41,140 bases of DNA from Candidatus Methylacidiphilales bacterium. GTDB taxonomy: Bacteria > Verrucomicrobiota > Verrucomicrobiia > Methylacidiphilales > CAZTYG01. Within the stretch, counting starts at the first letter, position 1, and the number at the start of each line of letters is the position of its first letter. The notes under the pieces were generated by a model. The model was not told the origin of the DNA, did not search any database, and was given only the letters and a program-made list of their open reading frames with translations. The stretch is from contig JANRJG010000018.1 of the NCBI GenBank assembly GCA_033875315.1, forward strand, positions 1 through 41,140, written 5' to 3'. Position numbers and translations under genes: made by a program. Shown here piece after piece: positions 5,173 to 28,052 of the stretch.

Positions 5173-5263
5173 ATTGTCCCGCTTGAATTGCCAATCTGGG
5201 ACAAAATGGGCTTGGGTCATGATTCCATTGCCAATGGCGGAGTGGCTTTGCCATGCTCCCATT

Positions 5264-6136: not shown

Positions 6137-6218
6137 GCCTGTCTGAACCAGACGGAGCGAACGAGTCGCTGATCCCAAAGGGGCTTGCGGTCACAGGGCG
6201 GGAGGCCAATCTGGCTAG

Positions 6219-7025
6219 ATGAAGATCGTCCGCTTCCTTGATCTGGAAGGCCAAATCCGTTTCGGCCTGCCCACCGTTCCCGGCAAAGCCCGCCTCCTCG
6301 CCCACCACCCCCTGGAAAGCCTGGACCTCCTCGATCGGGAAATCACCCTCGGAAAGCTCCTGGCCCCCCTCACCCCGTCCGCCATCCTCTGCGTCGGCCT
6401 GAATTACCGGAAACACGCGGAAGAAACCGGGGCAAAAATCCCCGAACACCCGATCCTCTTCATGAAATCACCCACCGCCGTCCAGCATCCCGGCGACCCC
6501 ATCCTCCTGCCAAGGCACTTGCAGAGCAACGAGGTCGATTACGAAGCCGAACTGGCTGTGGTCATCGGCAGAACCTGCAAAAATGCGACCCGTGCGAACG
6601 CGCTGGACCATGTGCTCGGCTACACCTGCGCCAATGATGTCAGCGCCCGCGACTGGCAGAAGCATGGCGGGGGCGGTCAGTGGTGCCGGGGCAAGGGCTT
6701 CGACACTTTTTGCCCGCTCGGTCCATGGATCGTGACCCGAGACGAAATCCCCAACCCGAACCAGCTCCGACTCCAGACGCGCGTCAATGGTGAGACGCTC
6801 CAGGATTCCAACACCGCCGACATGATCTTCGACGTCCCCGCGCTGATCGAATTCCTCAGCGGCAGCACCACCCTGGCGCCCGGAACCGTCATCCTGACCG
6901 GCACTCCAAGCGGCGTCGGCATGGCCCGGGAACCCAAGCGATGGCTGCTGCCAAAAGACCGAGTCGAGATTGAAATCGAACAGATCGGGGTGTTGGAAAA
7001 CCCGGTGGCAGAAGAACCCGTTTGA
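6219..7025 (+). CDS. Fumarylacetoacetate-hydrolase-family enzyme (2-keto-3-deoxy sugar-acid type)
   Basis: This 268-residue protein of the FAH family cleaves or hydrolyses beta-keto or 2-keto-3-deoxy acids with Mg or Mn. The core has CVGLNYRKHAEE near 58-69, FMKSP near 81-85, the metal-binding pair Glu109/Glu111 in EVDYEAELAVVIG, Asp140 in CANDVSARD, and the C-terminal ILTGTPSGVG. The compact size and GLNYRKHA motif resemble members acting on 2,4-diketo-3-deoxy-L-fuconate or similar compounds, rather than true FAH of tyrosine breakdown. Its position behind a sugar lactonase and near a FucP-type symporter supports a sugar-acid role. No clear Shine-Dalgarno is seen before the ATG, and the spacer contains no obvious terminator. 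The substrate is inferred. Confidence 0.85.
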   Translation: MKIVRFLDLEGQIRFGLPTVPGKARLLAHHPLESLDLLDREITLGKLLAPLTPSAILCVGLNYRKHAEETGAKIPEHPILFMKSPTAVQHPGDPILLPRHLQSNEVDYEAELAVVIGRTCKNATRANALDHVLGYTCANDVSARDWQKHGGGGQWCRGKGFDTFCPLGPWIVTRDEIPNPNQLRLQTRVNGETLQDSNTADMIFDVPALIEFLSGSTTLAPGTVILTGTPSGVGMAREPKRWLLPKDRVEIEIEQIGVLENPVAEEPV

Positions 7026-7085
7026 AACGGGCATGACGGAAGGCTTTGTGCCTATACAGATCTGGCTGCCACGAGGACAAGAAGA

Positions 7086-7157
<72 letters not shown>

Positions 7158-7245
7158 CGGCGAAAATGAAAAACCTACAATCGACCACCCGGTCGATGCA
7201 AGCGGGAATATCTGCGGAGCAGGGCCGGAAACCGATGATCCCCCC

Positions 7246-7259
7246 AAAGGATTCGAATC
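7246..7259. repeat. T-arm-like palindrome downstream of the symporter gene
   Basis: AGGATTCGAATCCT is a 14-bp perfect palindrome that looks like a tRNA T arm (GGxTTCGAAxCC). On the minus strand it comes right after the symporter stop and is followed by TTGGGGGGA. The rest of a tRNA is not present. It could be a tRNA 3' remnant (as left by integration) or part of a terminator hairpin; I cannot separate these. Confidence 0.3.
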
Positions 7260-7263
7260 CTCT

Positions 7264-8754
7264 TCAATGGCCTTTGGTGCCCTGCAGGCCGACCACGCCC
7301 GAGGATCCACTCAGTCGGACCCAATTGAATCCATAAGCTGCGACAGCCAGGAAGCAGACCAGGGGGACGACAAAACCTGTGGACATCCCGTGTTCATCGG
7401 CGACATGGCCCATGAGTTTGGGCACGATGGCCCCGCCCATGATGGCCATGACAATGTAGGAAGAGGCCCGTTTGGCCCGGGCGCCCAGCCCGTGGATGCC
7501 AAGGGCGAAGATGGTGGGGAACATGATCGACATGAAGAAGTAACTAAGAAACACCGCCACCACGGAAACCCAACCCCACTTGAGCATGACGAGAAGACAG
7601 GCCAAAACGTTGATGGCCGCATAGAGGCCCAAAATGTGGTGGGCGGGAAATTTCTTCAACAAAGCCGCTCCGGTGAACCGACCGACTAGAAAACAGACGA
7701 AGCCGACCGATGCGAGTGTGGAAGCGGTCTTATTGCTGATCTCGACCGGGGTCTGGGAAGTCATGTAGTTGATGAAGTAGGCAAAAATCCCCGACTGGGC
7801 GGCGACATAAAAAAACTGGGTCAGGGTGGCCGAGGAAAAATGCGGGTGCGACCAAATGCTCTGCTGGCCGAATCGGTGTGCTTTCAAACCGACCACGAAG
7901 GCAGAGATGACAAAGGCCAGGGCCGTGGAGCCCAGGAAAAACCAGAGCCCATGGCTCTCATCGGGATCGAAGACCGCGGCAATGGCGGTGAAGATCATGC
8001 CAAAAGAGGCGGCCAGAACCACCAGATTGGCCCAGACCAAGGCCACGGCGAGGGCGCTCATTCCACTGCCAGAAGAAGCATTCGCAGCCACATCCGCCTC
8101 GTCCATGTGGTAATCGTCGGTTGTCTTGATGTCCGGCAGTTCAACTCTCCAAAAAATCAGGGCCAGAACCAGCACAATGACTCCGACTGCCGCGTAGGGA
8201 ATCCACAGGGTCTGGGCTCCGGTGCTGTGCCCCTGGGCGTCGGTTGAGTAGAAAAACATGGCTCCGGCGATGGGACCAAAGATCCAACCAATGCCGTTGC
8301 AGGACTGGGCCAGGTTGATCCGGGTGGCGGCGAATTGCTTGGGTCCCAGCACCGTGGTGTAGGGGTTGGCCACAGTTTCCAGGAAGGTCAGACCGGAGGC
8401 GATGAAACAGACACCAAGGAGGAATGACCAGAAGGTGGCCAGATGGGTGGCAGCGATGAACCAAAAGCCCCCCGCGGCCACCATGACCAGACCGGTGATG
8501 ATGCCTCCTTTGTAACCTAGCTTGGAAGCCAGCCATCCCGCAGGCAGGGCCATCAGGAAATAACCCAGATAATGCGCAAATTGAACCCAGGCGGATTGCG
8601 AAAGATTCAGCCCCAGTTCTTCCTGGAAGTGCTTGTCCATCACATCGATCATCCCGTTCAGAAAACCCCAAAGCAGGAACAGGGAGGAAACCAGGATAAA
8701 GGTGACAAGACGATTTTTCCCGTCTTCAGTTCGGAACAGGTCGGAGTGAATCAT
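7264..8754 (-). CDS. MFS sugar:H+ symporter of the FHS/FucP family
   Basis: This integral inner-membrane transporter has about 12 hydrophobic segments and 496 residues from the start MIHSDLF. The early segment LLWGFLNGMIDVMDKHF and QFAHYLGYFLMALPAG are characteristic of the fucose-galactose-glucose:H+ symporter family. TFLETVANPYTTVLGP matches the FucP segment holding the essential Glu (Glu135 in E. coli). The most likely cargo is L-fucose or a related neutral sugar. There is an insertion-like hydrophilic stretch near the middle (LPDIKTTDDYHMDEAD). The start is ambiguous: another in-frame ATG 17 codons upstream exists, and neither has a good Shine-Dalgarno. It is divergent from a PAS-AraC regulator, which probably controls it, and lies next to lactonase and FAH genes that could process the sugar. 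Confidence 0.88.
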   Translation of the reverse strand: MIHSDLFRTEDGKNRLVTFILVSSLFLLWGFLNGMIDVMDKHFQEELGLNLSQSAWVQFAHYLGYFLMALPAGWLASKLGYKGGIITGLVMVAAGGFWFIAATHLATFWSFLLGVCFIASGLTFLETVANPYTTVLGPKQFAATRINLAQSCNGIGWIFGPIAGAMFFYSTDAQGHSTGAQTLWIPYAAVGVIVLVLALIFWRVELPDIKTTDDYHMDEADVAANASSGSGMSALAVALVWANLVVLAASFGMIFTAIAAVFDPDESHGLWFFLGSTALAFVISAFVVGLKAHRFGQQSIWSHPHFSSATLTQFFYVAAQSGIFAYFINYMTSQTPVEISNKTASTLASVGFVCFLVGRFTGAALLKKFPAHHILGLYAAINVLACLLVMLKWGWVSVVAVFLSYFFMSIMFPTIFALGIHGLGARAKRASSYIVMAIMGGAIVPKLMGHVADEHGMSTGFVVPLVCFLAVAAYGFNWVRLSGSSGVVGLQGTKGH

Positions 8755-8792
8755 AATTTTGTTTGCGATTTCTCCATCATTATCCATTTGCG

Positions 8793-8818
8793 CCAAACAT
8801 GGCAATCATGGTTTGTGG
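8793..8818. promoter_or_regulatory. Candidate operator in the symporter/AraC divergent region
   Basis: The 177-base intergenic region between the divergent symporter and AraC-type genes contains CCAAACATG at 8793-8801 and CATGGTTTG at 8807-8815. This is an imperfect inverted repeat that also contains a CATGG repeat. It sits about 40 bases upstream of the symporter start on the minus strand. Binding by the neighbouring regulator is an inference from position only. Confidence 0.3.
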
Positions 8819-8931: not shown

Positions 8932-9774
8932 ATGCCACTCACGAAGCAACCCCGCACAACGTCCACTCCTGCTTTCCCCCGCCGGGGCCTCCGAGTCGCC
9001 CCGCCCTTCGATAGCACCCGGTTCCTCCTCAGTCTGGAGCCCTGCCGTCATATTGAAGAATTGGTCGGACTCCTGCCCGATTCCAATTACTTTGCCAAAG
9101 ACTCGAGGGGCCGCTTTGTGCTCATGGACGACGGGTTTGTCGCCATGCTCGGCTGCACCGGCCGCGAGCAGGTCATCGGGCGGACCGATTATGATTTTTT
9201 CCCCAAGGAGACCGCCCGCCAGTACGTCGCTGACGACCGCCGGGTCATGGCCTCGGGAATGGCGCTTCGCCGCCATCCGGAACCGGTGCCCGACCGCGAC
9301 CTCACCTTTCATTGGTGGCTGGTCAACAAGGTCCCCTTGCGCGACCGCAAGGGCATGGTCGTTGGGGTGGCCGGACTCATGTCACGAATGCAGAGCGAAC
9401 CCGACACTTCGCTATATGGCGATAGCATGTTGCCCGTTCTGAGCCATATCGGCCGCACCTATGGCCAACCGGTCAAGGTCCCGGAACTCGCCCGGCTGGC
9501 CGGCTTATCGGTGCGTTCCTTTGAGCGTCATTTTCAAAAAATGTTCCAAACCTCGCCCATCCGCTACGTCAATCTCGTCCGCCTCCAGGCTGCCCGCCAG
9601 CGCTTGATCCGCTCGGCCCTCAGTCTGGCAGAAATCGCCTCATCCTGTGGTTTCTACGACCAAAGCCACATGACCGCCCTTTTCACCCGGCACTTCGGCC
9701 TGAGCCCACGCCGGTACCGCCTCGCCCATGATTTTTCCCAACCCCGTCAGTCCTTGCCACCCCCCTCGCGTTGA
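8932..9774 (+). CDS. AraC-family transcriptional regulator with PAS-like sensor domain
   Basis: The product has 280 residues from MPLTKQPRT. An N-terminal PAS-like domain at about 40-150 contains NYFAKDSRGRFVLMD and IGRTDYDFFPKETA, a pattern seen in small-ligand PAS regulators. A C-terminal AraC/XylS double helix-turn-helix follows at about 165-268, with ELARLAGLSVRSFERHFQKMF in the first part and LAEIASSCGFYDQSHMTALFTRHFG in the second. AAGAGG lies about 12 bases before the ATG. The divergent arrangement with the FucP-type symporter suggests it regulates that gene and perhaps the adjacent catabolic genes or the downstream oxidoreductase cluster. PAS-AraC pairs of this kind are frequent in Verrucomicrobiota beside carbohydrate genes. 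The ligand is unknown. Confidence 0.88.
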   Translation: MPLTKQPRTTSTPAFPRRGLRVAPPFDSTRFLLSLEPCRHIEELVGLLPDSNYFAKDSRGRFVLMDDGFVAMLGCTGREQVIGRTDYDFFPKETARQYVADDRRVMASGMALRRHPEPVPDRDLTFHWWLVNKVPLRDRKGMVVGVAGLMSRMQSEPDTSLYGDSMLPVLSHIGRTYGQPVKVPELARLAGLSVRSFERHFQKMFQTSPIRYVNLVRLQAARQRLIRSALSLAEIASSCGFYDQSHMTALFTRHFGLSPRRYRLAHDFSQPRQSLPPPSR

Positions 9775-9858: not shown

Positions 9859-11178
9859 ATGCAACGTCGTTCCTTTCTCCAGCTTTTGGCCGCTTCTTCC
9901 CTAGGGGTCGGCTTCCCTTCCCTCGTGAAGGCTCAAACTCTGGGCATGGGCGGCGGGACCGCACCTTCCAACCGCATCACGCTCGCACTCGTCGGAGCTG
10001 GCAACCAGGGCCCCAGTGACATGCGCAATGCCATGTCCCAACCAGGCCTGCAGGTGGTTGCCATCTGCGATCCCGACCGGCAGCGCCGCCTCAAGGTCAA
10101 AACCTCGGTCGATGAAACCTATCAGGTGGCGGCCGGCGAAAAGGGCTGCGCCGACTACAACCACCCCATGGAAGCCATCCAGCATCCCGATCTGGATGCG
10201 GTCCTCATCGCCACCCCAGACCATTGGCATGCCCTCGCCACCCTCTGGGCCGCCCGGGCGGGCAAACACATTTATCTCGAAAAGCCCGTCACCCATCACA
10301 TCGCCGAAGGCCGCCCGATGATCAAGGCCGTCGAAAGGGCGGGCATCGTCTGCCAGGTCGGTTGCCAGCAGCGTTCCAGCAGCGAATTCATCCGCGCCAT
10401 CGATTTGGTCCGGAACGGTTTCCTCGGCCGTATCCAAAAAATCGAGGTTGGCCTGCCCGGATTCAGTGACGGCAAACCCCCGATACCTTTCGGACCCCAA
10501 CCGATCCCCGAGGGCTTCGACTACGATATCTGGGTCGGGCCGGCCCCGTTTCTGGGTTACCACCCCGAACGCTGCCATTATAAATGGCGCTGGAACCTCA
10601 ACTTCGGCGGCGGACAACTCGCTGACTGGATCGAACACCACTACGACATCGCGGCCCTGGCCATGAACGTCGCCGGAACCCAACCCGTGGCCATTCGTGA
10701 AGCCAGCGCCGAGTTCGTCCGCCAGAATCCGCTCTACGATGTCCCAACCAGTTATTCTTTCCAAGCCCACTACGCCGATAACACCGTCCTTCACGTCTCC
10801 TCGAAGTTTCCCGGAGGCATCCGTTTCGAAGGCGATGCCGGTTGGCTCACCGTCACCCGCGGCCAGATGAATTACAGTTCCGAGGTCCTCCGACGCGCCG
10901 TCATCCCCAGCCACCTCTCCATAGCCCCCGAACCGAAGTCGCACATGGCTTCCTTCCTCGATGCCATCCGCACCGGGTGCAAAAACAACGCCCCCTTGGA
11001 CGAGGCCCATAACATCGCCACCGTCGCCCACCTCGCCAATGCCGCCCTGCGCAGCAACCGCAGCGAGCTTCTCTGGGACCCCGCAACGGAATCCCTGCAG
11101 GAATCCCTCCCAGAGGCCTCCGATGCCGCCCGCATCCTCACGCGCACCTACCGAGCCCCTTATGTCCTTCCCGCCTGA
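9859..11178 (+). CDS. Tat-exported Gfo/Idh/MocA-family oxidoreductase (first copy)
   Basis: The 439-residue product starts MQRRSFLQLLAASSLGVG, a twin-arginine signal, so it is folded in the cytosol with its NAD(P) cofactor and then exported. The Rossmann fold begins at ITLALVGAGNQG. The family's catalytic EKP is in HIYLEKPVTHH, and a substrate-site segment reads GGGQLADWIEHHYDIA, with the usual D..xH..D arrangement. AAGG lies about 10 bases before the chosen ATG; a GTG three codons upstream is possible. Such exported members oxidise sugars, sugar alcohols or glycosides, often at C3. It is first in a run whose next gene (DUF1080) overlaps its stop, so the two proteins are probably made together. 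The substrate is unknown. Confidence 0.88.
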   Translation: MQRRSFLQLLAASSLGVGFPSLVKAQTLGMGGGTAPSNRITLALVGAGNQGPSDMRNAMSQPGLQVVAICDPDRQRRLKVKTSVDETYQVAAGEKGCADYNHPMEAIQHPDLDAVLIATPDHWHALATLWAARAGKHIYLEKPVTHHIAEGRPMIKAVERAGIVCQVGCQQRSSSEFIRAIDLVRNGFLGRIQKIEVGLPGFSDGKPPIPFGPQPIPEGFDYDIWVGPAPFLGYHPERCHYKWRWNLNFGGGQLADWIEHHYDIAALAMNVAGTQPVAIREASAEFVRQNPLYDVPTSYSFQAHYADNTVLHVSSKFPGGIRFEGDAGWLTVTRGQMNYSSEVLRRAVIPSHLSIAPEPKSHMASFLDAIRTGCKNNAPLDEAHNIATVAHLANAALRSNRSELLWDPATESLQESLPEASDAARILTRTYRAPYVLPA

Positions 11179-11968
11179 TTCCCGTTTCAAACCGGCCCTG
11201 GCCAATAAACTGGGCCGCGTCTTCATCCTCGTGCTGACCTGGGCCCCCGCGCTCCCCCTCCTGGCATGGAATCCCCCCGAAGCAGTGACGGCGTGGAAAT
11301 TCAACGACCCCACCCGCCCCCTTCCAGCCGTGGTGGAGCCCCTCCCCGAATCCACCTTGGTGGCACGCAGCACGCCGCCCCCCGGTGCGGAAGTGCTCTT
11401 CTCCGGTGACTCCCTTTCTTCCTGGAACCCCACCAAGTGGAAAATCGGGAACGGCATCCTCGAATGCGTTCCCGGCTCGGGTTCCCTCACCTCGATCAAA
11501 GGCTACGGCTCCTGCCGCCTGCACCTCGAGTGGAGCACGCCCTCCACCCCGCCGCTGAAAACCGGCCAGAACCGTGGCAACAGCGGGATCTTCTTCATGG
11601 GAAAATACGAGGTCCAGATACTCGACACCTTCGACAATCCGACCTACGCCGATGGCATCGCGGGTGCGGTATACGGCCAATACCCCCCCACCGTCAACCC
11701 CATCCGTCCCCCCGGGCAATGGCAGTTCTATGACATCGAATTCCACCGACCGGTCTTCGACGCAACAGGGCTCCTTATCCGTCCCGCCACCCTGACCGTT
11801 GATTTCAACGGCCATCGCGTTCAAGACCGGGTTGAACTCACCGGCCCTACCAATCCACCCGGCCGCAAGCCTTACCAACCCCACCCCGACGCCCTCCCGA
11901 TTTCCATCCAGGATCACAAGGAAATCGTCCGCTTCCGCAACATCTGGATCCTGCCCATCCCCGACTAG
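11162..11968 (+). CDS. Secreted DUF1080 (3-keto-glycoside hydrolase/lyase-like) protein
   Basis: The 268-residue product has a signal anchor around residues 20-35 and a DUF1080 lectin-like fold. Family hallmarks are clear: LFSGDSLSSWNP, QNRGNSGIFFMGKYEVQILD and YPPTVNPIRPPGQWQFYDIEF. Characterised members of this family act on 3-keto glycosides made by Gfo/Idh oxidoreductases, as in the Bacteroides keto-glycoside pathway. That fits the genetic setting here. Its ATG overlaps the end of the oxidoreductase gene by 17 bases, indicating translational coupling. The next gene (ThuA-HEAT) begins 7 bases after its stop. I cannot tell hydrolase from lyase activity by sequence. Confidence 0.86.
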   Translation: MSFPPDSRFKPALANKLGRVFILVLTWAPALPLLAWNPPEAVTAWKFNDPTRPLPAVVEPLPESTLVARSTPPPGAEVLFSGDSLSSWNPTKWKIGNGILECVPGSGSLTSIKGYGSCRLHLEWSTPSTPPLKTGQNRGNSGIFFMGKYEVQILDTFDNPTYADGIAGAVYGQYPPTVNPIRPPGQWQFYDIEFHRPVFDATGLLIRPATLTVDFNGHRVQDRVELTGPTNPPGRKPYQPHPDALPISIQDHKEIVRFRNIWILPIPD

Positions 11969-11975
11969 GCCGCCC

Positions 11976-14873
11976 ATGTCCTCCGACCGCTTTCCCCACT
12001 TTATCCTGGTCACCTGCTGGGCGCTAGGGCTTGCCCTGTCTCCCGCCAGCGGGCAATCGCCCACACCTTCAGCACCCACGCCCAAACCTCCACCCCCACC
12101 CCCCACCCCCGAACAACTGGCCCGGGTGGATAAGGCCCTGCCCTCCGCTCCCACCGCCAAACCCCTGAAACCCCGTCGCCTCCTCGTTTTTTCCCGCACC
12201 GAGGGCTTCGTCCATTCGTCCATCCCAATCGGCGAGGCCATGCTCACCCGCCTCGGCTCGGCGACCGGCGCCTACACCGCCGTGGTGAGCAAAGAAATGG
12301 ATGCCTTCACTCCGGAATCGCTCAACTCATTCGACGCTATCCTCTTCCTGAACAGCACGGGCCTCAAATTCGAGAATCCCGCCCACCGCAAAGCCCTGCT
12401 CGACTTCGTCGCCTCCGGCAGGGGCGTCGCCGGTCTCCATGCCGCAACCGACAACTTCCCCAACTGGCCGGAAGGCCAGGCCCTCATCGGCGGTCTCTTC
12501 CATGGCCACCCCTGGGGCTCCGGCGACCTTGTCGCCATCAAACTCGATGATCCCTCACACGTCATCAACCGCGCCTTCGACGGAAAAGGCTTTTGGCTCA
12601 AGGAAGAAATCTATCAAATGCGCGATCCCTACAGCCGGGAGAAGCTCCGGGTGGTTGCCAGTCTCGACATGGACAAACCGGAAAACGCCCGGCCCCCGGA
12701 AAAAATCAAGCGCAGCGACAACGACTTTCCCATCAGTTGGATCAAGAATGAGGGCCCGGGCCGCGTCTTCTACACCTCCCTCGGACACCGCGAGGACATC
12801 TACTGGGTCCCGCAAATTGTCCGCCATATCCTCGACGGCATCCAGTTCGCCCTCGGGGATCTGGCCGCGGACGCCGTGCCCTCGGCCAAAATCCCATCCC
12901 CGCCACTCCCCGCCCCGGCCCCGGCCGACAAAACCACGCTGCAAGAAATGGTAGACGGAAAAAAAACCACCACTGCAGCTGCATCTGCACCTGCCCCGGC
13001 CTCCACCGAAACTCCCGCCGACACCTCCATCGGGGAGGACGCGCTTTACCAAGCACTCAGGGCCTACCAGTTCGACCAACCCGCCGAACCCCTCGTCCAG
13101 TTGCACCAACTCATCCGGCAGAAAAAACCCGCGGACCGTGCCGCCGATGAAGCCAAACTGCTCGCCGTCGCCAGCGACCCATCCCTCAACTCCTGGTCCC
13201 GCCAATCCGCCCTGCGCATGCTCCAGCTCATGGCCGGCCCGGCCTCCGTGCCCGCCTTGGAAAAAATGGCCCCGGATTCCGTCGTCTGCGATGAGGCTAT
13301 CCGGTTGCTATCTTGGATCACCGACCCCACAGCCACCGAGGCCCTGATCCGCCTTGCTGGCCATGAATCCGAGGTCGTGCGCCTGCCCGCCCTCCAGGCC
13401 CTCCGCACCCGCCCGACTCCGGAGGCCATTCGAACCCTTTCCCAAGCGGCACAGTCCGCGGAAACGTCCACTGCATTGGCCGCCGTGGAAAGCCTCACCG
13501 CCATCGCCTCCCCCCAGTCGTATCAAGCACTGGTCTCCAACGCGAAATCCCTCTCCCCCCAAGCCACCCTCGAAGCCGCCCTCCTCACCTGGCAGCAGAG
13601 CCCTCAACCCGCCCGGGACACGTTCGCCGCAACAGCCGCCGCCCTGGCCCGGAAACACCTCGCGTCCGATGCCGATACCTCTGCGCGGTTGCTGGCCGCC
13701 AAACTGCTTTTGGCCACAGAGGGTGACAAAGCCCTGCCCGAACTGATTCCCTTGCTCGGCGGCCAAACCCCGCCCCGTCTGGCCATGGCCTTGGCCCAAG
13801 ACGTCCTGACCACCCGCACCCCCCAAGCCCTCCAAGCCTTGGCCGGTGCGCTTCCCAACGCCATTCCCGCCGCCCAATCCGCCCTTCTCAATGCCGCCCG
13901 CGATCTCCATGAATCCGCCTTCCGTCCCCTCCTCCTCCTCGGCACCTCCCTCCCCGATCCGGCGCTCGCTTCGGCCAGCCTCCAGGGACTGGCCCTGATC
14001 GGCGATCCCCAGGATGACGCGATGCTGCTCGCCGCATTGAACAACCCGGCGGGCGACGCAACATCCGCCCGACGCGCCCTGCGTATGGCCCGGTCTCCAT
14101 CCATCATCCCGCTGCTCCGCACCAGTCTGGAGCAATCCCTGCAAACAAGCACACCGTCAATTCTAACACTGCTCTGCTCCATTCTCGGCGACCGACAGGA
14201 CCGGGAGGCCTTTCCCCTCCTGCTGAAGGCCTGCGAATCCCCGGACGACGGCGCACGCGCCGCAGCCTTCCAGGCCCTGGCCACCCTGGCCCGTCCCGGC
14301 GATCTCCCGCTCTTTCTAAAAATCTCCGACAAGGCCCGCAAATCAGCAGAGCGCCGCGAATGGCGCAAAGCGCTCAACACCACTGCCGCCACCCACCCTT
14401 CCCCGACCGAAGCAGTCCAACTCCTGGAAACCGCGTTGTCCGACCCGGCCCATCCAGCACGCCCGGATTTCATCGGCGCCCTCACCCTGGTCGCCACCCC
14501 GGAAGCCACAGCCCGGTTGCAAAACCTCCTGGCATCCAATGACGCCAACCAGCGCAAGGATGTCCTGCGCGCCCTTTCGGCCTCGCGCAGCCAGGGTGCC
14601 CAGGACCTGCTCCTGCAAGCCGCGGAATCATCCACCGCCGAGGATGAAAAAATCCTCGCCCTGCGCGGCGCCCTTGATGCCATCGGCAGCCGAGAAGTAC
14701 CCGCCGATAAGGTCCCGGCCTACCGCAAGGCCTGGAGCCTGGCCCAACGCCAGGAAGAAAAGGACGCCATCCTCGCCGCCTTGCGCGATATGCCCCGGGT
14801 ACGCACGGCGGTCACACTCCTGAAGGAAATCGAACCTCCCGCACCTGCGGCGGCTCCGCAAACCTCACAATAA
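11976..14873 (+). CDS. Secreted ThuA-domain protein with long HEAT-repeat C-terminus
   Basis: This 965-residue protein has a signal peptide (MSSDRFPHFILVTCWALGLA...ASG), a proline-rich linker PKPPPPPPTPEQ, and a ThuA domain at about 65-300. Motifs are LLVFSRTEGFVHSSIP, GVAGLHAATDNF, GGLFHGHPWG and GRVFYTSLGHRED. ThuA is a glutamine-amidotransferase-like fold linked to trehalose and other sugar use. An Ala/Pro linker leads to about 600 residues of alpha-helical HEAT-like repeats (for example LIRLAGHESEVVRLPALQAL). Planctomycetes and Verrucomicrobia often fuse such parts to cytochrome c, but no CxxCH heme motif is present here. It lies between DUF1080 and DoxX in the same orientation with short gaps (7 and 11 bases). 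It may be a scaffold or ligand-binding part of the exported sugar-oxidation system. Confidence 0.82.
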   Translation: MSSDRFPHFILVTCWALGLALSPASGQSPTPSAPTPKPPPPPPTPEQLARVDKALPSAPTAKPLKPRRLLVFSRTEGFVHSSIPIGEAMLTRLGSATGAYTAVVSKEMDAFTPESLNSFDAILFLNSTGLKFENPAHRKALLDFVASGRGVAGLHAATDNFPNWPEGQALIGGLFHGHPWGSGDLVAIKLDDPSHVINRAFDGKGFWLKEEIYQMRDPYSREKLRVVASLDMDKPENARPPEKIKRSDNDFPISWIKNEGPGRVFYTSLGHREDIYWVPQIVRHILDGIQFALGDLAADAVPSAKIPSPPLPAPAPADKTTLQEMVDGKKTTTAAASAPAPASTETPADTSIGEDALYQALRAYQFDQPAEPLVQLHQLIRQKKPADRAADEAKLLAVASDPSLNSWSRQSALRMLQLMAGPASVPALEKMAPDSVVCDEAIRLLSWITDPTATEALIRLAGHESEVVRLPALQALRTRPTPEAIRTLSQAAQSAETSTALAAVESLTAIASPQSYQALVSNAKSLSPQATLEAALLTWQQSPQPARDTFAATAAALARKHLASDADTSARLLAAKLLLATEGDKALPELIPLLGGQTPPRLAMALAQDVLTTRTPQALQALAGALPNAIPAAQSALLNAARDLHESAFRPLLLLGTSLPDPALASASLQGLALIGDPQDDAMLLAALNNPAGDATSARRALRMARSPSIIPLLRTSLEQSLQTSTPSILTLLCSILGDRQDREAFPLLLKACESPDDGARAAAFQALATLARPGDLPLFLKISDKARKSAERREWRKALNTTAATHPSPTEAVQLLETALSDPAHPARPDFIGALTLVATPEATARLQNLLASNDANQRKDVLRALSASRSQGAQDLLLQAAESSTAEDEKILALRGALDAIGSREVPADKVPAYRKAWSLAQRQEEKDAILAALRDMPRVRTAVTLLKEIEPPAPAAAPQTSQ

Positions 14874-14884
14874 ATCCATCCACT

Positions 14885-15430
14885 ATGAATCCCAACCCAT
14901 CCCAGACACCGACATCCGAACCCGTCCGCTTTCTCGGCTGCTCCGGCCAAACCCTCGCCTTCCTCAGTCTCCGTCTCTGGCTCGGACTGCGCGCCCTGGT
15001 CACCGGTTTGGAAAAATTCGCCGCCAAAGTCAACATCCAGGAACCCCTGCTCGACGCCCAGGGCCAGCCCGACCCCAGCGGGGCGGTGGTAGAAATCGAA
15101 AAAAAGGTCTACGGACTCTCCCATTACCATGCGGTGCCGGAATCACTCCAAACGAAATTCGCCGGTGAACCCCTCCTCCCCGGCATCTTCACCGGGCCTT
15201 TCTACGCCGCCCTGGGTCCGATCCTCATCCTCCTCGGCCTTCTGCTCCTGGCCGGCATCTGCACCCGCCTCAGCCTCGTCGGCATGGCCCTTCTCTACAC
15301 CATGCTCACCTTCGGGCTGATGCTCATCGGACAAGACCAGGGCGTTTCCTGGCTGGCCATCCACATCGCGCTCGTCGCCCTCTCCCTCTCCTGGGTCGAG
15401 CACAACCGTTTCACCTTGACCCGCTCATGA
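14885..15430 (+). CDS. DoxX-like integral membrane protein
   Basis: This 181-residue protein has a first hydrophobic segment around 25-45 (LAFLSLRLWLGLRALVTGLEKF), a periplasmic-looking loop with KKVYGLSHYHAVPESL, and three clustered hydrophobic segments at about 100-175. RLWLGLRALVTGLEKF and the four-helix layout match the DoxX family. Named members are small membrane subunits of quinone-reducing enzymes such as thiosulfate:quinone oxidoreductase. Its stop overlaps the next start (ATGA), so it is coupled to the second Tat oxidoreductase. A role in moving electrons from the exported oxidoreductases to quinone is a hypothesis from context only. Confidence 0.75.
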   Translation: MNPNPSQTPTSEPVRFLGCSGQTLAFLSLRLWLGLRALVTGLEKFAAKVNIQEPLLDAQGQPDPSGAVVEIEKKVYGLSHYHAVPESLQTKFAGEPLLPGIFTGPFYAALGPILILLGLLLLAGICTRLSLVGMALLYTMLTFGLMLIGQDQGVSWLAIHIALVALSLSWVEHNRFTLTRS

Positions 15431-16767
15431 ACTCCGCCCAACCCGGCTCCCACGCTTCCTCCCCTCTCACCCGCCGCGACTTCCTCGGCTATTCCACCGG
15501 AGCCGCCCTCACCCTGGCCACCACCCCGTCCCTCTTCTCCATCACCCCCCCGGATGGCGCCAAGCCCCTCCGCCTCGCCCTGGTCGGCTTCGGCGCCCAG
15601 GGCCGCGTCCTGGCCGAGGCCATCGTCAAAGTCCCGGGCATCCAGGTCGTTGCCCTCTGCGACATCTGGGACTATGCCCGTGAATACGGGCGGCGCTTCT
15701 TCAAATCCAACGGCACCGAAACCAACGGATACCGCGACCTGGAAGAATTGCTGGCCAAAGAAAAAGACCTGGACGCCGCCATCGTCGCTACCCCCGATGT
15801 TTTCCATGCCCCCCACACCATCGCCTGTCTTCAAGCGGGGTTGCATGTTTACTGCGAAAAGATGATGTCCAACACCGTCGAGGGGGCCCGCAGTATGGTC
15901 CAGGCGATGAAGACCACCGGGCGATTGCTCCAGATCGGCCACCAGCGGCGGAGCAACCCACGATACCTCGTGGCCCGCAACCGCCTTCTCTTGGAAGCCC
16001 GCATCACCGGCCGCTTGACTGCCGCCCACGCCCAATGGAACCGCGCCGTCTCCGAGGACCTCGGCTGGCCGAAAAAAGCCGCCATTCCCGACGACGTGCT
16101 CAAGCACTACGGCTTTCCCGACATGCACACCTTCCGCAACTGGCGTTGGTTCAAAAAGTTTGGCGGCGGTCCGCTCTCCGACCTCGGGGCCCACCAAATT
16201 GACATCCTCAGTTGGTTCTTTGACCGCCTGCCCAGCACCGTCATCGCCAGTGGCGGCAGTGACTACTACAAAAACCACGAGTGGTTCGACAATGCCATGG
16301 TCATTTACGAATACCCGCTGCCCGAGGGCACGGCCCGTGCGTTCTACCAGGTACAGACCACCACCAGTTCCGGTGGCGGCTACTTCGAACAATTCATGGG
16401 CACCGAGGGCACACTCAAAATCTCGGAAAACCCCAACCTCACGGTGATCTACCGTGAAGCATCCGCCCCTTCGTGGGAGGAATGGGTGCGCAAGAACTAT
16501 CTCCGCGTCAACGCCGCCCCGGCCCCCGACCCCGACGCCAAAGTGGACGCCCGCGAAACCGCCGCACTCGCCACCTACAAGCTTCCCGTGGTCACCAACA
16601 AGGCCATCCACCAATACCACCTGGAAAACTTCTTCCAAAGCATCCGCGGCAAGGCCACTCTCAATTGCCCCTCCGACGAGGCCTTCCGCAGTGAATACCC
16701 CATTTTCAAAGCCATCGAGGCGGTGGAAACCCGCCAGTTGGTCCAAATCCAAGAACCCTCCGTTTGA
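15427..16767 (+). CDS. Tat-exported Gfo/Idh/MocA-family oxidoreductase (second copy)
   Basis: The 446-residue product has the twin-arginine motif LTRRDFLGYSTGAALTLA and is probably exported with bound NAD(P). The Rossmann motif is LALVGFGAQGRV. At the catalytic position it reads VYCEKMMSN, so the Lys of the family's EKP is kept but Pro is replaced by Met. The second motif, GGGPLSDLGAHQIDILSW, is canonical. A long aromatic-rich stretch follows (MHTFRNWRWFKKFGGG), as in many exported members. It differs clearly from the first copy at 9859, so the two may act on different substrates or form a heteromer. The ATG overlaps the DoxX stop by 4 bases, and the discoidin-like gene starts 2 bases after its stop, so the three are co-translated. 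Confidence 0.88.
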   Translation: MNSAQPGSHASSPLTRRDFLGYSTGAALTLATTPSLFSITPPDGAKPLRLALVGFGAQGRVLAEAIVKVPGIQVVALCDIWDYAREYGRRFFKSNGTETNGYRDLEELLAKEKDLDAAIVATPDVFHAPHTIACLQAGLHVYCEKMMSNTVEGARSMVQAMKTTGRLLQIGHQRRSNPRYLVARNRLLLEARITGRLTAAHAQWNRAVSEDLGWPKKAAIPDDVLKHYGFPDMHTFRNWRWFKKFGGGPLSDLGAHQIDILSWFFDRLPSTVIASGGSDYYKNHEWFDNAMVIYEYPLPEGTARAFYQVQTTTSSGGGYFEQFMGTEGTLKISENPNLTVIYREASAPSWEEWVRKNYLRVNAAPAPDPDAKVDARETAALATYKLPVVTNKAIHQYHLENFFQSIRGKATLNCPSDEAFRSEYPIFKAIEAVETRQLVQIQEPSV

Positions 16768-16768
16768 T

Positions 16769-17461
16769 ATGAAAACCACCCCCATCCCATCCATCCCATC
16801 GATTCCCACCCTCCTCCTCGCCATCCTCGCGCTCTCCCTTGGCCCCACCCGGCTGCCCGCCGCCGACAAGGTCCCGCTGGTCACCGAATTGCCCAAGCCC
16901 CTCATCATCGGAACTCCGGTGCCCATGAAGGTGGAGAACCTTGAAGCCCCCCGCAGCGGCAAACGCCCCGATTTCCTCGTCCCGGCCACCGCCAAAAACC
17001 TCGCCCTCAAAAAACCCGTCACCAGCAGCGACCCCCAACCGCTCCTCGGCGATCCCGAACTGGTGACCGACGGCGACAAGGACGGAGCCGAAGGCAGCTA
17101 CGTCGAACTGGCCAAGGGCACCCAATGGGTTCAGATCGATCTCGGCAGCCCGGCCGAGATCAACGCCCTCCTTGTGTGGCACTTCCACGCCCAGGCCCGC
17201 GTTTATTACGGTGTCGTGGTCCAAGTGTCCAATGACCCTGACTTCATTTCCGGCGTGACCACCGTTTTCAATAACGACATCAAGAATGTCACCGGCAAGG
17301 GTGCGGGCAAAGATCCCACCTATGTCGAAACCTATGAAGGCCGCCTCATCGATGCCAAAGGAGTGAAGGGTCGCTACGTCCGGCTTTACAGCCAGGGAAA
17401 CACCGCCAACGCGATGAACCATTACATCGAGGTGGAAGTGTGGGGCACCCCGGCCAATTAG
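16769..17461 (+). CDS. Secreted discoidin (F5/8 type C)-like domain protein
   Basis: The 230-residue product begins with a signal peptide (MKTTPIPSIPSIPTLLLAILAL...LPA). The C-terminal part, about 75-228, resembles a discoidin/F5-8C carbohydrate-binding fold: NLALKKPVTSSD at the entrance, ELVTDGDKDG, QWVQIDLGSPAEINALLVWH and RYVRLYSQG. Such domains bind glycans. The gene starts 2 bases after the second Tat oxidoreductase (TGATATG), so it may supply substrate binding for that exported enzyme. No catalytic residues are evident. It is the last gene of the cluster, and a hairpin lies about 40 bases after its stop. Confidence 0.75.
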   Translation: MKTTPIPSIPSIPTLLLAILALSLGPTRLPAADKVPLVTELPKPLIIGTPVPMKVENLEAPRSGKRPDFLVPATAKNLALKKPVTSSDPQPLLGDPELVTDGDKDGAEGSYVELAKGTQWVQIDLGSPAEINALLVWHFHAQARVYYGVVVQVSNDPDFISGVTTVFNNDIKNVTGKGAGKDPTYVETYEGRLIDAKGVKGRYVRLYSQGNTANAMNHYIEVEVWGTPAN

Positions 17462-17498: not shown

Positions 17499-17523
17499 CT
17501 TTCTCTCGGGGATGGAGAGAAAG
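17499..17523. terminator. Hairpin after the oxidoreductase cluster (possible terminator)
   Basis: CTTTCTCTC at 17499-17507 pairs perfectly with GAGAGAAAG at 17515-17523 across a 7-base loop. It lies in the 109-base gap between the discoidin-like gene and the next gene. No T-run follows, so it may be a weak terminator or an mRNA-end structure rather than a classical intrinsic terminator. Confidence 0.4.
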
Positions 17524-17570: not shown

Positions 17571-19088
17571 ATGGATAATACTCTAAACCCCACTCCGCCC
17601 CATTCTGCCAGCCGTCCGGCATGGCGGGTAGGGCTGTCCGGTTTCGTATTTCTGTTCCTGGCCCTGGTCCTCTCTGCGTTTTCCCTGCGCCTCCTCCGGA
17701 TCGAAAACCGTCCGTTCCACACCGACGAAGCGGTCAACGCACAGCTCCTGGAAGACCTCAACCGCGAGGGGGTGTTCCACTACCGCGCCAACGACCACCA
17801 CGGCCCCCTGCTCTTTTACGTCACCGCCCCGCTCCTGCGCATTGCCGGAATCACCCGCACCGACGACATGCAGGCCTGGATGCTGCGGATTGTTCCCGTC
17901 CTCGCCGGGACCGCTTTGGTGGCGGCGGCGGCCTTGTTCAGGCCCTGGCTCGGAACCCCCGCCGCCCTGGCAACCGCCGCCCTCCTGGCCCTGGCCGCCC
18001 CCTTTGTTTATTACAGCGGAATCTTCATCCACGAAACCCTCTTGGTGCTTCTGCTCCTGTGTTGGATCTCTATGGTTTGGCGCTGGCGACAAACCGGTTC
18101 GGTCTTCACGGCCGCGCTCGCCGGATGGATCACCGGCCTGATGCTGGCCACCAAGGAAACCGCCGCCCCCATCCTCATCCTGGGTGGTCTGGCCCTGCTC
18201 CCGGGCACCCGCCTTCCACCGACGACCTGGTTCCGCGGGGCGGCCGCCGCGCTTGTGCTGGCTTTCCTCACCACCTTGCTTTTATACAGTGATTTTGGCC
18301 GTCAGCCGGACCAGGCCTTTGCCCTGCTGGATGCCGTGACCCACCAATGGGGCCGTGCCACCGGCACCGATCACGCCCACCCTTGGTCGACCTACCTTTC
18401 GTGGATGTTCCTGCCCTCCCCCATCGGCTTCCCATGGAGCAGTTGGATCATGGTCGCCGGCCTGATCACCGCCTTCCCGTGCCTCCGCCATGATCCCCTG
18501 CCCCGGGCACTGACCCTCTTCGCCCTTCTCCTCCTGTTGTTCTTTTCCACCCTTCCCTACAAGACACCCTGGCTGCAACTGGCCTTTTGGTTGCCAGCCT
18601 TGCCCGTGGCCGCACTCGGCTGGTCGCTCCTACTCCACCGCCACCCCCGCGTCGCTTGGACTGCCGCCGCCCTGGCCCTCGTGCTCATGGGACTGGAAAC
18701 CTCCAGCCGCTGCCTTCGTTTCGACGCCGATCCACGCAACCCACTGGCCTACTCCCCCAGCAGCCCCGACTTGGAACGCCTGCAACGGGACCTGGCTGTC
18801 CTGGCCCACAAACCCACAGCACCCAACGGCCAAACCAAGCCCGGTGAATTCATCATCCAAGTCATCGCCCCCGACTACTGGCCCCTGCCCTGGACTTTGC
18901 GCCACCATCCAAATACCGGATTTTGGAACACCCCGCCCACAACCCTCCTGCCCGGCCTGGTCCTGGCGGCGCCGGAATTTCTGGGCGCCCTCGACCTCGT
19001 GCCTCCGCTGACCCCTTACGAGATCCGCCCCGGCCTGACCCTCTTCCTCGGACGCTCCCCTTCATCAACCTCTCCCCCGCTTCCATGA
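17571..19088 (+). CDS. Agl23-like membrane glycosyltransferase-family protein
   Basis: This 505-residue polytopic membrane protein has about a dozen hydrophobic segments. Near the first loop it has ENRPFHTDEAVNAQLL and then YRANDHHGPLLFY, followed by GLMLATKETAAPIL. These motifs match the 'flippase activity-associated protein Agl23' group (TIGR03663), relatives of the GT-C/PMT-type mannosyltransferases in which an acidic residue in the first outer loop is catalytic. It probably transfers or handles lipid-linked sugars on the outer face of the membrane. The ATG is just inside a new transcriptional segment after a 109-base gap. Its stop overlaps the ApbE start (ATGA), so the two are coupled. 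The acceptor is unknown. Confidence 0.78.
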   Translation: MDNTLNPTPPHSASRPAWRVGLSGFVFLFLALVLSAFSLRLLRIENRPFHTDEAVNAQLLEDLNREGVFHYRANDHHGPLLFYVTAPLLRIAGITRTDDMQAWMLRIVPVLAGTALVAAAALFRPWLGTPAALATAALLALAAPFVYYSGIFIHETLLVLLLLCWISMVWRWRQTGSVFTAALAGWITGLMLATKETAAPILILGGLALLPGTRLPPTTWFRGAAAALVLAFLTTLLLYSDFGRQPDQAFALLDAVTHQWGRATGTDHAHPWSTYLSWMFLPSPIGFPWSSWIMVAGLITAFPCLRHDPLPRALTLFALLLLLFFSTLPYKTPWLQLAFWLPALPVAALGWSLLLHRHPRVAWTAAALALVLMGLETSSRCLRFDADPRNPLAYSPSSPDLERLQRDLAVLAHKPTAPNGQTKPGEFIIQVIAPDYWPLPWTLRHHPNTGFWNTPPTTLLPGLVLAAPEFLGALDLVPPLTPYEIRPGLTLFLGRSPSSTSPPLP

Positions 19089-19942
19089 AGGACGCCCCCC
19101 TTGTCCCCACCGTGGTCCATCGCCACGAGGCCATGGCCACTTGGTTCGAAGTGCGCCTGGCCACAGACGACCCCGCCTACGCCGCCGCGGCCGCCCGCGA
19201 AGTTTTCCGGTTGGTCGACCGCTGTGAATCCCTGTTGAGCCGCTACCGAGAAGACAGCGAGATTTGCCAGATTGGGCGACTGTCCTCCGGGCAAAGTTTG
19301 CGTTTGTCCTTGGAAACCTTTGCCTGCCTGCGTTTGGCTCTGGATCTCAGCCAGGCCACCCACGGGGCTTTCGATCCCGCACTGGGTGCACCCGAACCGG
19401 ACCAACCCCTGCCGGAGCAGCGTGGTCGTATCATACTGGACGGAGCCACCCTCACCGCCACCCTCGAGGGTCCCCCGGTTCATCTTGATCTAGGTGCCAT
19501 TGGCAAGGGCCATGCCCTTGATCTCGGGGCGGCGATCCTACGGGAATGGGAAATGGACCACGCCCTGCTGGTGGCGGGAGGCAGCAGCCTTCTCGCCCTC
19601 GAAACCCCACCCGGGCGGGCGGGGTGGGAGATTGGCCTGAGCCATGATTCGGGCATTCTCTTGAACGATGCCGCCCTCGGAGCCTCGGGTGGAGCCGTGC
19701 AGGGCCCCCATATCCTTGATCCCCGCACCGGTCAACCGGCCCACCGGCACCATCGCACTTGGGCCCACGCCGGTTCGGCCGCAGAAGCCGACGCCCTTTC
19801 CACAGCGGCCATGTTGCTCACAGAAGATGCCCTGCGGGAGATCACAATCAGCCATCCCGCTTGGAGCTTTGCCTGGCTGGATCGGGAAGACCAGTCCAAA
19901 CCGGAGAGTGTCGGTACCTTTCCGCTGTTACCCCATGCGTAA
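19085..19942 (+). CDS. apbE: FAD:protein FMN transferase (ApbE-like)
   Basis: The 285-residue product transfers FMN from FAD onto Thr/Ser of target flavoproteins. Motifs are present in order: HRHEAMATWFEVRL at the start, SLLSRYREDSEICQIG, ATHGAFDPALG, and the nucleotide-binding LDLGAIGKG at 134-142. Near the end AEADALSTAAMLL carries the metal-binding Asp. Length is near the family norm. There is no signal peptide or lipobox, so this copy would act in the cytosol, unlike many exported ApbE proteins. Its start overlaps the Agl23-like stop by 4 bases. No obvious flavinylated partner (FMN-binding or PepSY domain) lies in the window, so its target must be elsewhere. Confidence 0.85.
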   Translation: MKDAPLVPTVVHRHEAMATWFEVRLATDDPAYAAAAAREVFRLVDRCESLLSRYREDSEICQIGRLSSGQSLRLSLETFACLRLALDLSQATHGAFDPALGAPEPDQPLPEQRGRIILDGATLTATLEGPPVHLDLGAIGKGHALDLGAAILREWEMDHALLVAGGSSLLALETPPGRAGWEIGLSHDSGILLNDAALGASGGAVQGPHILDPRTGQPAHRHHRTWAHAGSAAEADALSTAAMLLTEDALREITISHPAWSFAWLDREDQSKPESVGTFPLLPHA

Positions 19943-19945
19943 CCT

Positions 19946-20794
19946 ATGCATAACCAAGCAAGCACCATGAATTACCAACTCCACGCCGCTGCCAATCACT
20001 TGGAAGTCACCCGCGACGGCCAGCCCGTCGGCCTTTACCACACCGGCGACCCCTTCAAGCCGCATTGGCACCCGTTGCGTTCGCCCGCGGGCCACATCGT
20101 CACCCTGGCCCGGCCGCACGACCACCTCCACCACAAGGGCCTGATGTATGTGCTGCGCACCAGCCGCTACAATTTCATGGAGGAGGCGAATCTCCGACCC
20201 GGTGAGGAAGTCGGCCGCCAGATCCATCTGCGCTTCGAGGATGTGGTATCCGCCGGCCCGGCGGTTTCCTGGACCGAACATCTGGAATGGCGCGGCGGGG
20301 CCGGACACGAGCCGGTCTTCCGGGAAATCCGCCGCCAAAATATTTCCACCGCTCCCTCCGGCGGCCTTCTGCTGGCCTGGCACTCCAGCCTGACCGCGGT
20401 CTCCGACCTGAGCCTGATCCAAAGCGAATGGAGCCGCCCCAACAAGGACGGCGTCCTGATCAATTACCATGGCCTGGTCATCCGCCTGCCCCGCGAATGG
20501 TGTGGCACGGGGAACTTCGGCTTCGCCGCCGACGGGGTGCCAATGCCCGCCGCCGATGCCTTCGGCACCCGGGTCCGGGAGGCCACTTACTACGGCGCCA
20601 TGGACGGCCCGGAGGAGCTGACCTTCGCCTCGGTCACCTTGCGCCAACATCAGGACCACCGACTCTGCCTGCGCGACGCCCCTTTTGCCTGGATGACGAT
20701 GGGACCGACCAATGGCGGCCCGCTGGAGATCGCCGCCGGCCATGTGTTCGAGGAACGCTACGAAGTGGAAATCCGCGACGGCAAGCCGTTTTGA
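19946..20794 (+). CDS. PmoA-like (DUF6807) family protein
   Basis: The 282-residue product starts 3 bases after the apbE stop; a second ATG (MNYQL) 7 codons later is equally possible. The His-rich stretch RPHDHLHHKGLMY and the beta-rich body, with an aromatic-His sequence near its end (FAWMTMGPTNGG), match the family annotated as 'methane oxygenase PmoA', now DUF6807. Despite that name, it is unrelated to the membrane methane monooxygenase. Members occur beside carbohydrate and Gfo/Idh genes in Verrucomicrobia and Bacteroidetes; their reaction is not established. The His cluster could bind a metal. There is no signal peptide, so it is probably cytosolic. Confidence 0.8.
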   Translation: MHNQASTMNYQLHAAANHLEVTRDGQPVGLYHTGDPFKPHWHPLRSPAGHIVTLARPHDHLHHKGLMYVLRTSRYNFMEEANLRPGEEVGRQIHLRFEDVVSAGPAVSWTEHLEWRGGAGHEPVFREIRRQNISTAPSGGLLLAWHSSLTAVSDLSLIQSEWSRPNKDGVLINYHGLVIRLPREWCGTGNFGFAADGVPMPAADAFGTRVREATYYGAMDGPEELTFASVTLRQHQDHRLCLRDAPFAWMTMGPTNGGPLEIAAGHVFEERYEVEIRDGKPF

Positions 20795-28039: not shown

Positions 28040-28052
28040 ACAGGTGATCCCA

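Follow-up and report, generated by a model that had tools for sequence, protein, structure and literature searches.

A near-fixed DoxX-Gfo/Idh-discoidin gene triad in a Methylacidiphilales bacterium and its possible role in extracytoplasmic glycoside oxidation

Gene content of the locus

The first 41,140 nucleotides (nt) of contig JANRJG010000018.1 from a Candidatus Methylacidiphilales bacterium (Verrucomicrobiota; assembly GCA_033875315.1) form the stretch of DNA analysed here, referred to as the window. At positions 9859-17461 it carries a block of six tightly packed, intact genes on the plus strand that encode, in order, a Gfo/Idh oxidoreductase (Gfo1), a DUF1080 protein, a ThuA domain fused to HEAT repeats, a DoxX-like protein, a second Gfo/Idh oxidoreductase (Gfo2) and a discoidin protein (Table 1). 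A first-pass annotation had named these families as consecutive genes with overlaps or tiny gaps, and both statements hold, the families by Pfam and NCBIfam models and, for DoxX, by profile and structure comparison. The Gfo1 and DUF1080 genes overlap by 17 nt, gaps of 7 and 11 nt follow, the DoxX and Gfo2 genes share a 4-nt ATGA overlap and a single nucleotide precedes the discoidin gene. The run extends beyond position 17461, with a glycosyltransferase gene 109 nt after the discoidin gene, an ApbE gene joined to it by an ATGA overlap and a DUF6807 gene 3 nt after ApbE. A short inverted repeat (tttctctc/gagagaaa, found by eye) lies in the 109-nt gap at 17500-17521, with no T-run after it. Counts of candidate promoters and terminators lay close to the mean for shuffled sequence (2 versus 1.9 and 15 versus 11.9, respectively) and are not used as evidence.

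The early annotation of the block as encoding only exported or membrane proteins also agrees with the predictions. A twin-arginine (RR) motif is present in both Gfo1 and Gfo2, Gfo2 scores 19.5 bits against the twin-arginine translocation (Tat) model (cut-off 16.7), DUF1080, ThuA-HEAT and discoidin have hydrophobic N-termini on which their predicted export is based, and the DoxX-like protein is predicted to have four helices.

Table 1. Coordinates of the gene run and of its likely regulator in the window
Feature	Position	Strand	Evidence
PAS-AraC type regulator, likely regulating the block	8932..9774	+	PF12833, PF08448; start uncertain, open frame from 8572
Gfo1, predicted Tat-exported Gfo/Idh oxidoreductase, probable glycoside dehydrogenase	9859..11178	+	PF01408 + PF19051
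DUF1080/3-keto-disaccharide hydrolase family, predicted exported	11162..11968	+	PF06439 1.9e-33
ThuA domain fused to HEAT repeats, predicted exported	11976..14873	+	PF06283 6.2e-42, HEAT_2
DoxX-superfamily four-helix membrane protein, core triad, proposed electron acceptor	14885..15430	+	model, profile comparison
Gfo2, predicted Tat-exported Gfo/Idh oxidoreductase, core triad	15427..16767	+	PF01408 + PF02894
Discoidin/CBM32-like protein, predicted exported, core triad, proposed glycan binder	16769..17461	+	F5/8 type C 1.3e-7
GT-C glycosyltransferase, TIGR03663 (Agl23-like)	17571..19088	+	141.8 bits, cut-off 126.25
Putative ApbE-type FMN (flavin mononucleotide) transferase, without signal peptide	19085..19942	+	PF02424 3e-35
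DUF6807 protein, possible last gene of the run, outside the conserved core	19946..20794	+	PF14100

Conservation and spread of the core

DoxX, Gfo2 and discoidin form a near-fixed triad. Among 286 genomes of the class, DoxX-like homologues occur in 70 at an E value of 1e-3 and in 42 (window included) below 1e-30, and discoidin homologues occur in 82 at 1e-20. Discoidin is found in 39 of the 42 DoxX genomes versus 43 of the 244 others (Fisher p 1.2e-21, uncorrected for genome relatedness), and the two genes lie within 6 kb of each other in 36 of the 39 co-carrying genomes, being on different contigs in the remaining three. Neighbourhoods were fetched around 40 DoxX and 40 discoidin homologues. 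What almost every DoxX neighbourhood shares is Gfo2 rather than Gfo1 or DUF1080; it is present in 39 of the 40, the exception (L068) having DoxX at the contig start.

An alignment scan of named genomes with Gfo2 provided an independent bait, and the best 80 loci were kept. Counts require at least 6 kb of sequence on each side of Gfo2, a rule that retains 37 of these loci and drops 43, including the cytochrome-type loci described below (L081-L083 and L085). All 37 carry both DoxX and discoidin; a glycosyltransferase gene is found in 33, an ApbE gene in 31 and the exact one-strand order DoxX-Gfo2-discoidin-glycosyltransferase-ApbE in 22. In the class set, 16 of 59 Gfo2 loci were dropped for sequence ending within 6 kb and 43 were kept; its counts of 42/43 and 43/43 are partly circular because the bait was DoxX or discoidin, and the two sets have genomes in common. 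Clustering of all reading frames around Gfo2 without regard to names again put the DoxX, discoidin, glycosyltransferase and ApbE families on top, the four counts being 72, 66, 60 and 55 out of 81 neighbourhoods. Below them came two Gfo/Idh clusters (30 and 27), DUF1080 (22), ThuA (19), TIM-barrel (18), MFS (15) and glycosyltransferase-2 (13) proteins, whose lower counts act as an internal control for the recurrence of other neighbours.

The gene order holds from one phylum to another, with Gfo2 identity at 57-60%. The best 80 Gfo2 loci come from Verrucomicrobiota, metagenome-assembled genomes labelled Lentisphaerota and eight Acidobacteriota records, including the isolate Occallatibacter savannae (L145); Pelagicoccus mobilis (L175) is another carrier that can be cultured, and the record of one locus (L144) carries a planctomycete label, given here as found. 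In a quick 89-row Gfo2 tree all eight Acidobacteriota rows group together as a single clade (support of 100 in the Shimodaira-Hasegawa-like approximate likelihood ratio test), and thus the gene either was acquired by that phylum a single time or is old.

The first-pass annotation drew the six genes as the unit. That boundary is rejected because neighbourhood surveys with DoxX, discoidin and Gfo2 as baits show a different core: the invariant part is DoxX-Gfo2-discoidin, the glycosyltransferase and ApbE had been left out, and Gfo1-DUF1080-ThuA is lineage restricted. On the best reading, the unit is redrawn as the triad, usually accompanied by the glycosyltransferase-ApbE pair and, in the window's lineage, by a Gfo1-DUF1080-ThuA satellite. 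The neighbourhood survey that had been proposed for the original set does find it again, in 6 of the 40 DoxX neighbourhoods and at two further loci (L052 and L060). AraC homologues lie close to the core in 7 of the 40 DoxX loci, and blastp found no DUF6807 homologue in these 40 neighbourhoods.

Proteins of the triad

No Pfam or NCBIfam model scores above its cut-off for the DoxX-like protein, the only candidate being MauE (20.9 bits, cut-off 27), and a PF07681 search of its own genome matches another protein. Profile comparison with hhalign gives 82% against 19 PF07681-type DoxX proteins versus at most 1.1% for three unrelated controls (19 of the 20 extracted proteins were used, L199 being dropped). 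The structural model (predicted local distance difference test score, pLDDT, 90.9) shows four helices plus an additional beta hairpin. This four-helix fold and the DoxX-type motif support placing the protein in the DoxX superfamily by profile comparison, despite the sub-cut-off Pfam result. The top structural match among the re-aligned chains is NACHO/TMEM35A (Z 13.8, root-mean-square deviation 3.2, 127 aligned), followed by a match at 8.1. The tail of matches at Z 8 and below includes VKOR and GGCX, and such weak matches are no evidence of quinone binding by DoxX. Foldseek with the model found nothing at an E value of 0.001 or below, and a PDB sequence search with the DoxX profile returned nothing useful. 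Human NACHO/TMEM35A was matched far above all other chains, suggesting from the model that this receptor-assembly factor may be a DoxX-fold protein.

The nearest solved structure to Gfo2 is DgpA. The Tat arginines R16 and R17 and the catalytic-type residues E144, K145, D252 and H256 are kept in 59/59 orthologues. The discoidin protein matches PF00754 at 32.2 bits (cut-off 28.2), which identifies a beta-sandwich of the F5/8 type C class, and Foldseek aligns its model (pLDDT 89.1) to CBM32-type modules (E 1.3e-8). Its orthologues share a near-invariant WHxH motif (H140 in 71/71, H138 in 69/71). By these family resemblances the discoidin protein is proposed to be a glycan binder.

A cytochrome in place of DoxX

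Ten of 139 Gfo2 loci lack DoxX in the available sequence, and in five of the ten Gfo2 is at a contig end. In four DoxX-less loci, all from one genus (L081, L082, L083 and L085), the gene immediately following Gfo2 encodes a protein with seven CxxCH motifs. The gene order in this variant is Gfo1, HEAT protein, Gfo2, seven-CxxCH cytochrome c, 161-residue membrane protein, ApbE and discoidin, with the glycosyltransferase after discoidin in three of the four. The seven-CxxCH protein of L085 scores above the cut-off for Cytochrome_C7 and just below it for an MtrC/MtrF-type model. The 161-residue hydrophobic protein that follows it has four segments and conserved histidines, shares 68-73% identity with its counterparts in the other three genomes and matches no Pfam family at cut-off. 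The two proteins are read as a cytochrome c/b unit with a putative b-haem. All four genomes fall outside the 70 in which DoxX was matched. Since a cytochrome and a histidine-bearing membrane protein stand in place of the missing DoxX, the variant suggests that DoxX accepts electrons. The window's genome has three COX1-type genes and thus a respiratory chain is available.

The Gfo1-DUF1080-ThuA satellite

DUF1080, Gfo1 and ThuA are a lineage-restricted satellite found in nearer relatives. They lie on the same strand directly upstream of the triad in the six DoxX neighbourhoods (tblastn), one with the window's order (L034) and five with DUF1080 before Gfo1 (L035, L036, L037, L042 and L044), while L052 and L060 contain all six families in other arrangements. 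A PF06439 match adjoins Gfo1 in two further genomes (G075 and G246). Nine other class genomes carry close Gfo1 homologues (>380 bits), which are always on the triad's contig, within about 7 kb of it in eight and about 12 kb away in G246.

The gene for the DUF1080 protein is the only PF06439 gene of its genome. A PF06439 search of 24 further triad genomes, picked from carriers after neighbourhoods had been inspected, found the family in 23, with exactly one match in five (G131, G149, G076, G246 and G035). Where the gene is single copy, its distance from the triad is at most 12 kb in five of six triad genomes (window included), the exception being G149. Triad genomes with 10-17 PF06439 copies say little on linkage.

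Gfo/Idh and DUF1080 had been put forward as the core of a keto-glycoside pathway. The DUF1080 protein is a clear member of its family (PF06439, 116.6 bits, cut-off 26.8; nearest solved structure 4qhz) encoded beside Gfo1, and the nearest solved structures to Gfo1 are 8tdf and 8tdh, whose neighbouring entry 8tdi is named glucuronide-3-dehydrogenase; this much of the proposal stands. Equivalence to the Bacteroides enzymes does not. The BT_2158 model for glycoside 3-dehydrogenase (cut-off 750) gives a weak 133 bits for Gfo1 and 74 for Gfo2, and the BT_2159 model (cut-off 650) gives 20 and 21 bits for the two. Because these equivalog cut-offs are missed, the proteins are not filed as BT_2158 or BT_2159 orthologues and are only likened to them in working. 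A link of the block to a keto-sugar pathway is reasonable, its function being suggested by gene context.

The glycosyltransferase-ApbE pair

The locus reads as the triad plus a frequently linked second unit, the glycosyltransferase-ApbE pair. The glycosyltransferase exceeds the NCBIfam cut-off for TIGR03663 (Table 1). A TIGR03663 match is directly beside ApbE in 13 of the 16 class genomes searched for both, most of which were picked because their triad had no pair nearby; in one of these pairs (G103) the match scores below the cut-off. Pairs are found away from the triad at, for example, G203:C1:5118-7369 and G171:C55:43635-46003. The two genes are on separate contigs in G281, and G029 and G038 are fragmented. 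Among 21 discoidin neighbourhoods without Gfo2 in the available sequence, the glycosyltransferase is present in 11 and ApbE in 3.

The block's ApbE is the only one in its genome and shows no signal peptide, as judged from its start region and hydropathy; D237 and H210 are each kept in 39/39 orthologues. The nine block proteins, with ThuA and HEAT taken apart and DUF6807 included, are free of [ST]G[AS][ST] motifs. In the larger ortholog set, the pattern D-x(1-4)-[ST]GA[ST] is found in 1/16 ThuA, 2/87 Gfo2, 1/73 discoidin and 1/72 DoxX sequences and in none of the other labelled sets; a flavinylation-type pattern is not conserved in the block's orthologues. FMN_bind and NQR2_RnfD_RnfE (NqrB/RnfD) are absent from the genome, in a search that did not include DUF2271 and DUF3570. 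With no signal peptide and, among the domains and motifs searched, no known substrate or flavinylation site, the locus falls outside the extracytosolic flavinylation systems. Gfo2 is predicted to be Tat exported and so to fold in the cytoplasm, where, in theory, it might serve as a substrate of a cytoplasmic ApbE before export.

Neighbouring genes

Upstream of the block, positions 5174-8805 encode an SMP-30 lactonase, an FAH-type hydrolase resembling 2,4-didehydro-3-deoxy-L-rhamnonate hydrolase and a divergent FucP-like transporter, all below equivalog cut-offs. By family resemblance these genes look like an oxidative deoxy-sugar pathway adjoining the block. The window is rich in carbohydrate genes, with an alpha-L-fucosidase at 39878-41128, a GH16 protein at 30605-31411 and a GH43 protein at 21008-22549, all on the minus strand. 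Small genes lie at 28014-30179 (plus strand) and 22546-23325 (minus strand), three of them with type IV pilin-like N-methylation motifs; these pilin-like genes come after a 1242-residue open frame that has no Pfam match.

Possible functions of the locus

The preferred explanation, held tentatively, is that the block encodes an extracytoplasmic glycoside dehydrogenase that passes electrons via DoxX to quinone and feeds 3-keto-glycoside cleavage. Gfo2 would fold with NAD(P) in the cytoplasm and leave by Tat, the four-helix DoxX-like protein would hold it at the membrane and the discoidin protein would bind the glycan substrate. Gfo2 would then oxidise the sugar ring, probably at C3, with electrons passing to DoxX and on to the quinone pool, and Gfo1 would carry out a similar oxidation of a related glycoside. 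DUF1080 would cleave the keto-glycoside, ThuA-HEAT would process the product and a transporter would import it. The glycosyltransferase-ApbE pair would form a second, linked unit, either altering a component of the surface or providing flavin. The analysis itself shows which genes are present, their order and recurrence, the modelled folds of DoxX and discoidin and the conservation of catalytic-type residues; the substrate, the C3 position, the electron route and the roles of ThuA and ApbE are what we infer. A bolder version, which is improbable, makes the triad a new class of respiratory sugar dehydrogenase in which a Tat-exported Gfo/Idh enzyme would donate to a DoxX-type protein (replaceable by a multihaem cytochrome and a membrane protein) and thence to quinone, while the signal-less ApbE would flavinylate a new class of substrate, for example the dehydrogenase before export, as the missing flavin.

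Several points weigh against electron transfer to quinone and glycoside cleavage. Electron transfer from NAD(P)H to quinone normally requires a flavin or haem, no flavin or haem carrier is recognisable among the window's block proteins, and other Gfo/Idh enzymes are redox neutral. The early description of a complete surface module was too strong for the same locus, in which no block protein has a recognised extracytoplasmic electron-transfer cofactor. The cytochrome variant is limited to one genus and has an altered gene order, and a further locus (L089) lacks both DoxX and a cytochrome and has a HEAT protein before Gfo2. One genome (G182) carries the triad without PF06439, and in G149 the only PF06439 gene sits on a different contig from the triad. 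The presence of the glycosyltransferase and ApbE is at odds with a role in catabolism alone.

A rather unlikely alternative is surface-glycan biosynthesis or modification, in which the glycosyltransferase would add a sugar to an acceptor outside the cytoplasm, Gfo2 and DoxX would oxidise or epimerise the added sugar and the upstream catabolic genes would be a separate neighbour. The glycosyltransferase frequency in the Gfo2 loci, its presence beside discoidin in loci without Gfo2 and the glycosyltransferase-2 family (a possible maker of the lipid donor) in 13 of the 81 neighbourhoods argue for it, yet in some genomes the glycosyltransferase and ApbE are elsewhere while the triad stays together, and single-copy DUF1080 genes lie near the triad. 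Another alternative is a redox-neutral module in which Gfo1 and Gfo2 would retain their NAD(P) and recycle it within one reaction, as in glucose-fructose oxidoreductase and GH109 glycosidases, and DoxX would be only a membrane anchor or assembly factor like NACHO. Both of these enzymes are among the solved relatives, NACHO, the clearest structural match of DoxX, is titled an assembly factor, and DoxX has no known cofactor site; this reading is unlikely, and the multihaem cytochrome at the place of DoxX in one genus is something that an anchor role gives no reason to expect. That the locus is only a gene-rich carbohydrate island with common verrucomicrobial families side by side and no functional unit is very improbable. 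First-look Gfo1 candidates number up to 145 per genome and PF06439 genes up to 17, and GH43, GH16 and fucosidase genes lie in the window too, but the core families stand at 55-72 of 81 neighbourhoods versus 30 for the next family and their order survives between phyla. The block contains a fixed core, which sets it apart from a chance neighbourhood.

Comparison with known systems

Alternative glycan breakdown through 3-keto sugars is a described route. Like the BT2157-BT2159-type pathway of Bacteroides, the block places Gfo/Idh dehydrogenases beside a PF06439 hydrolase, and Gfo1 aligns to the BT_2158 model; unlike it, the window scores far below the equivalog cut-off (the comparison being with family models, not the BT locus itself) and adds DoxX, discoidin, ThuA-HEAT, the glycosyltransferase and ApbE. 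The window's dehydrogenases are Gfo/Idh proteins with a DoxX-like partner, unlike Caulobacter LacABC, whose LacA is a flavoenzyme of the GMC type that works with a cytochrome. In Caulobacter, lactose is used through membrane-bound oxidation by LacABC and a periplasmic DUF1080 hydrolase, which resembles the non-cytoplasmic sugar oxidation followed by DUF1080 hydrolysis proposed for the window (PMC9007349).

The DoxX-like protein shares a distant DoxX-type sequence (the 82% above) and the four-helix fold with the DoxD/DoxX thiosulfate:quinone oxidoreductase, and one of its orthologues matches the DoxD model of that enzyme at E 0.03. It differs in its extra beta hairpin and sugar-type dehydrogenase partner, and no thiosulfate-linked gene is found among the annotated neighbours. 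The window resembles extracytosolic flavinylation systems in having ApbE inside a redox gene cluster (PMC8238504), and differs in the missing signal peptide and [ST]G[AS][ST] motif. In their survey of such systems, Meheust and coworkers (2021) restricted the set to genes that carry a signal peptide or a lipidation site, and there still remained 670 genomes whose ApbE lacked a known substrate (PMC8238504). Literature searches, with most subscription papers outside their reach, found nothing on TIGR03663, no function described for its pairing with ApbE and no paper linking DoxX, ApbE and flavinylation, DoxX and Gfo, or NACHO/TMEM35A and DoxX; a looser search by title and abstract start found no paper describing the window's gene set.

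Significance

Exported Gfo/Idh proteins are very numerous in Verrucomicrobiota, and the triad with its cytochrome variant offers one testable answer to how their electrons are disposed of. The triad is tied to a signal-less type of ApbE that the published flavinylation survey left out by design (PMC8238504). If the proposed route is true, keto-sugar glycan breakdown would be joined to respiration and part of the DoxX superfamily would gain a function. A fixed and so far undescribed core that spans phyla gives experiments a concrete target.

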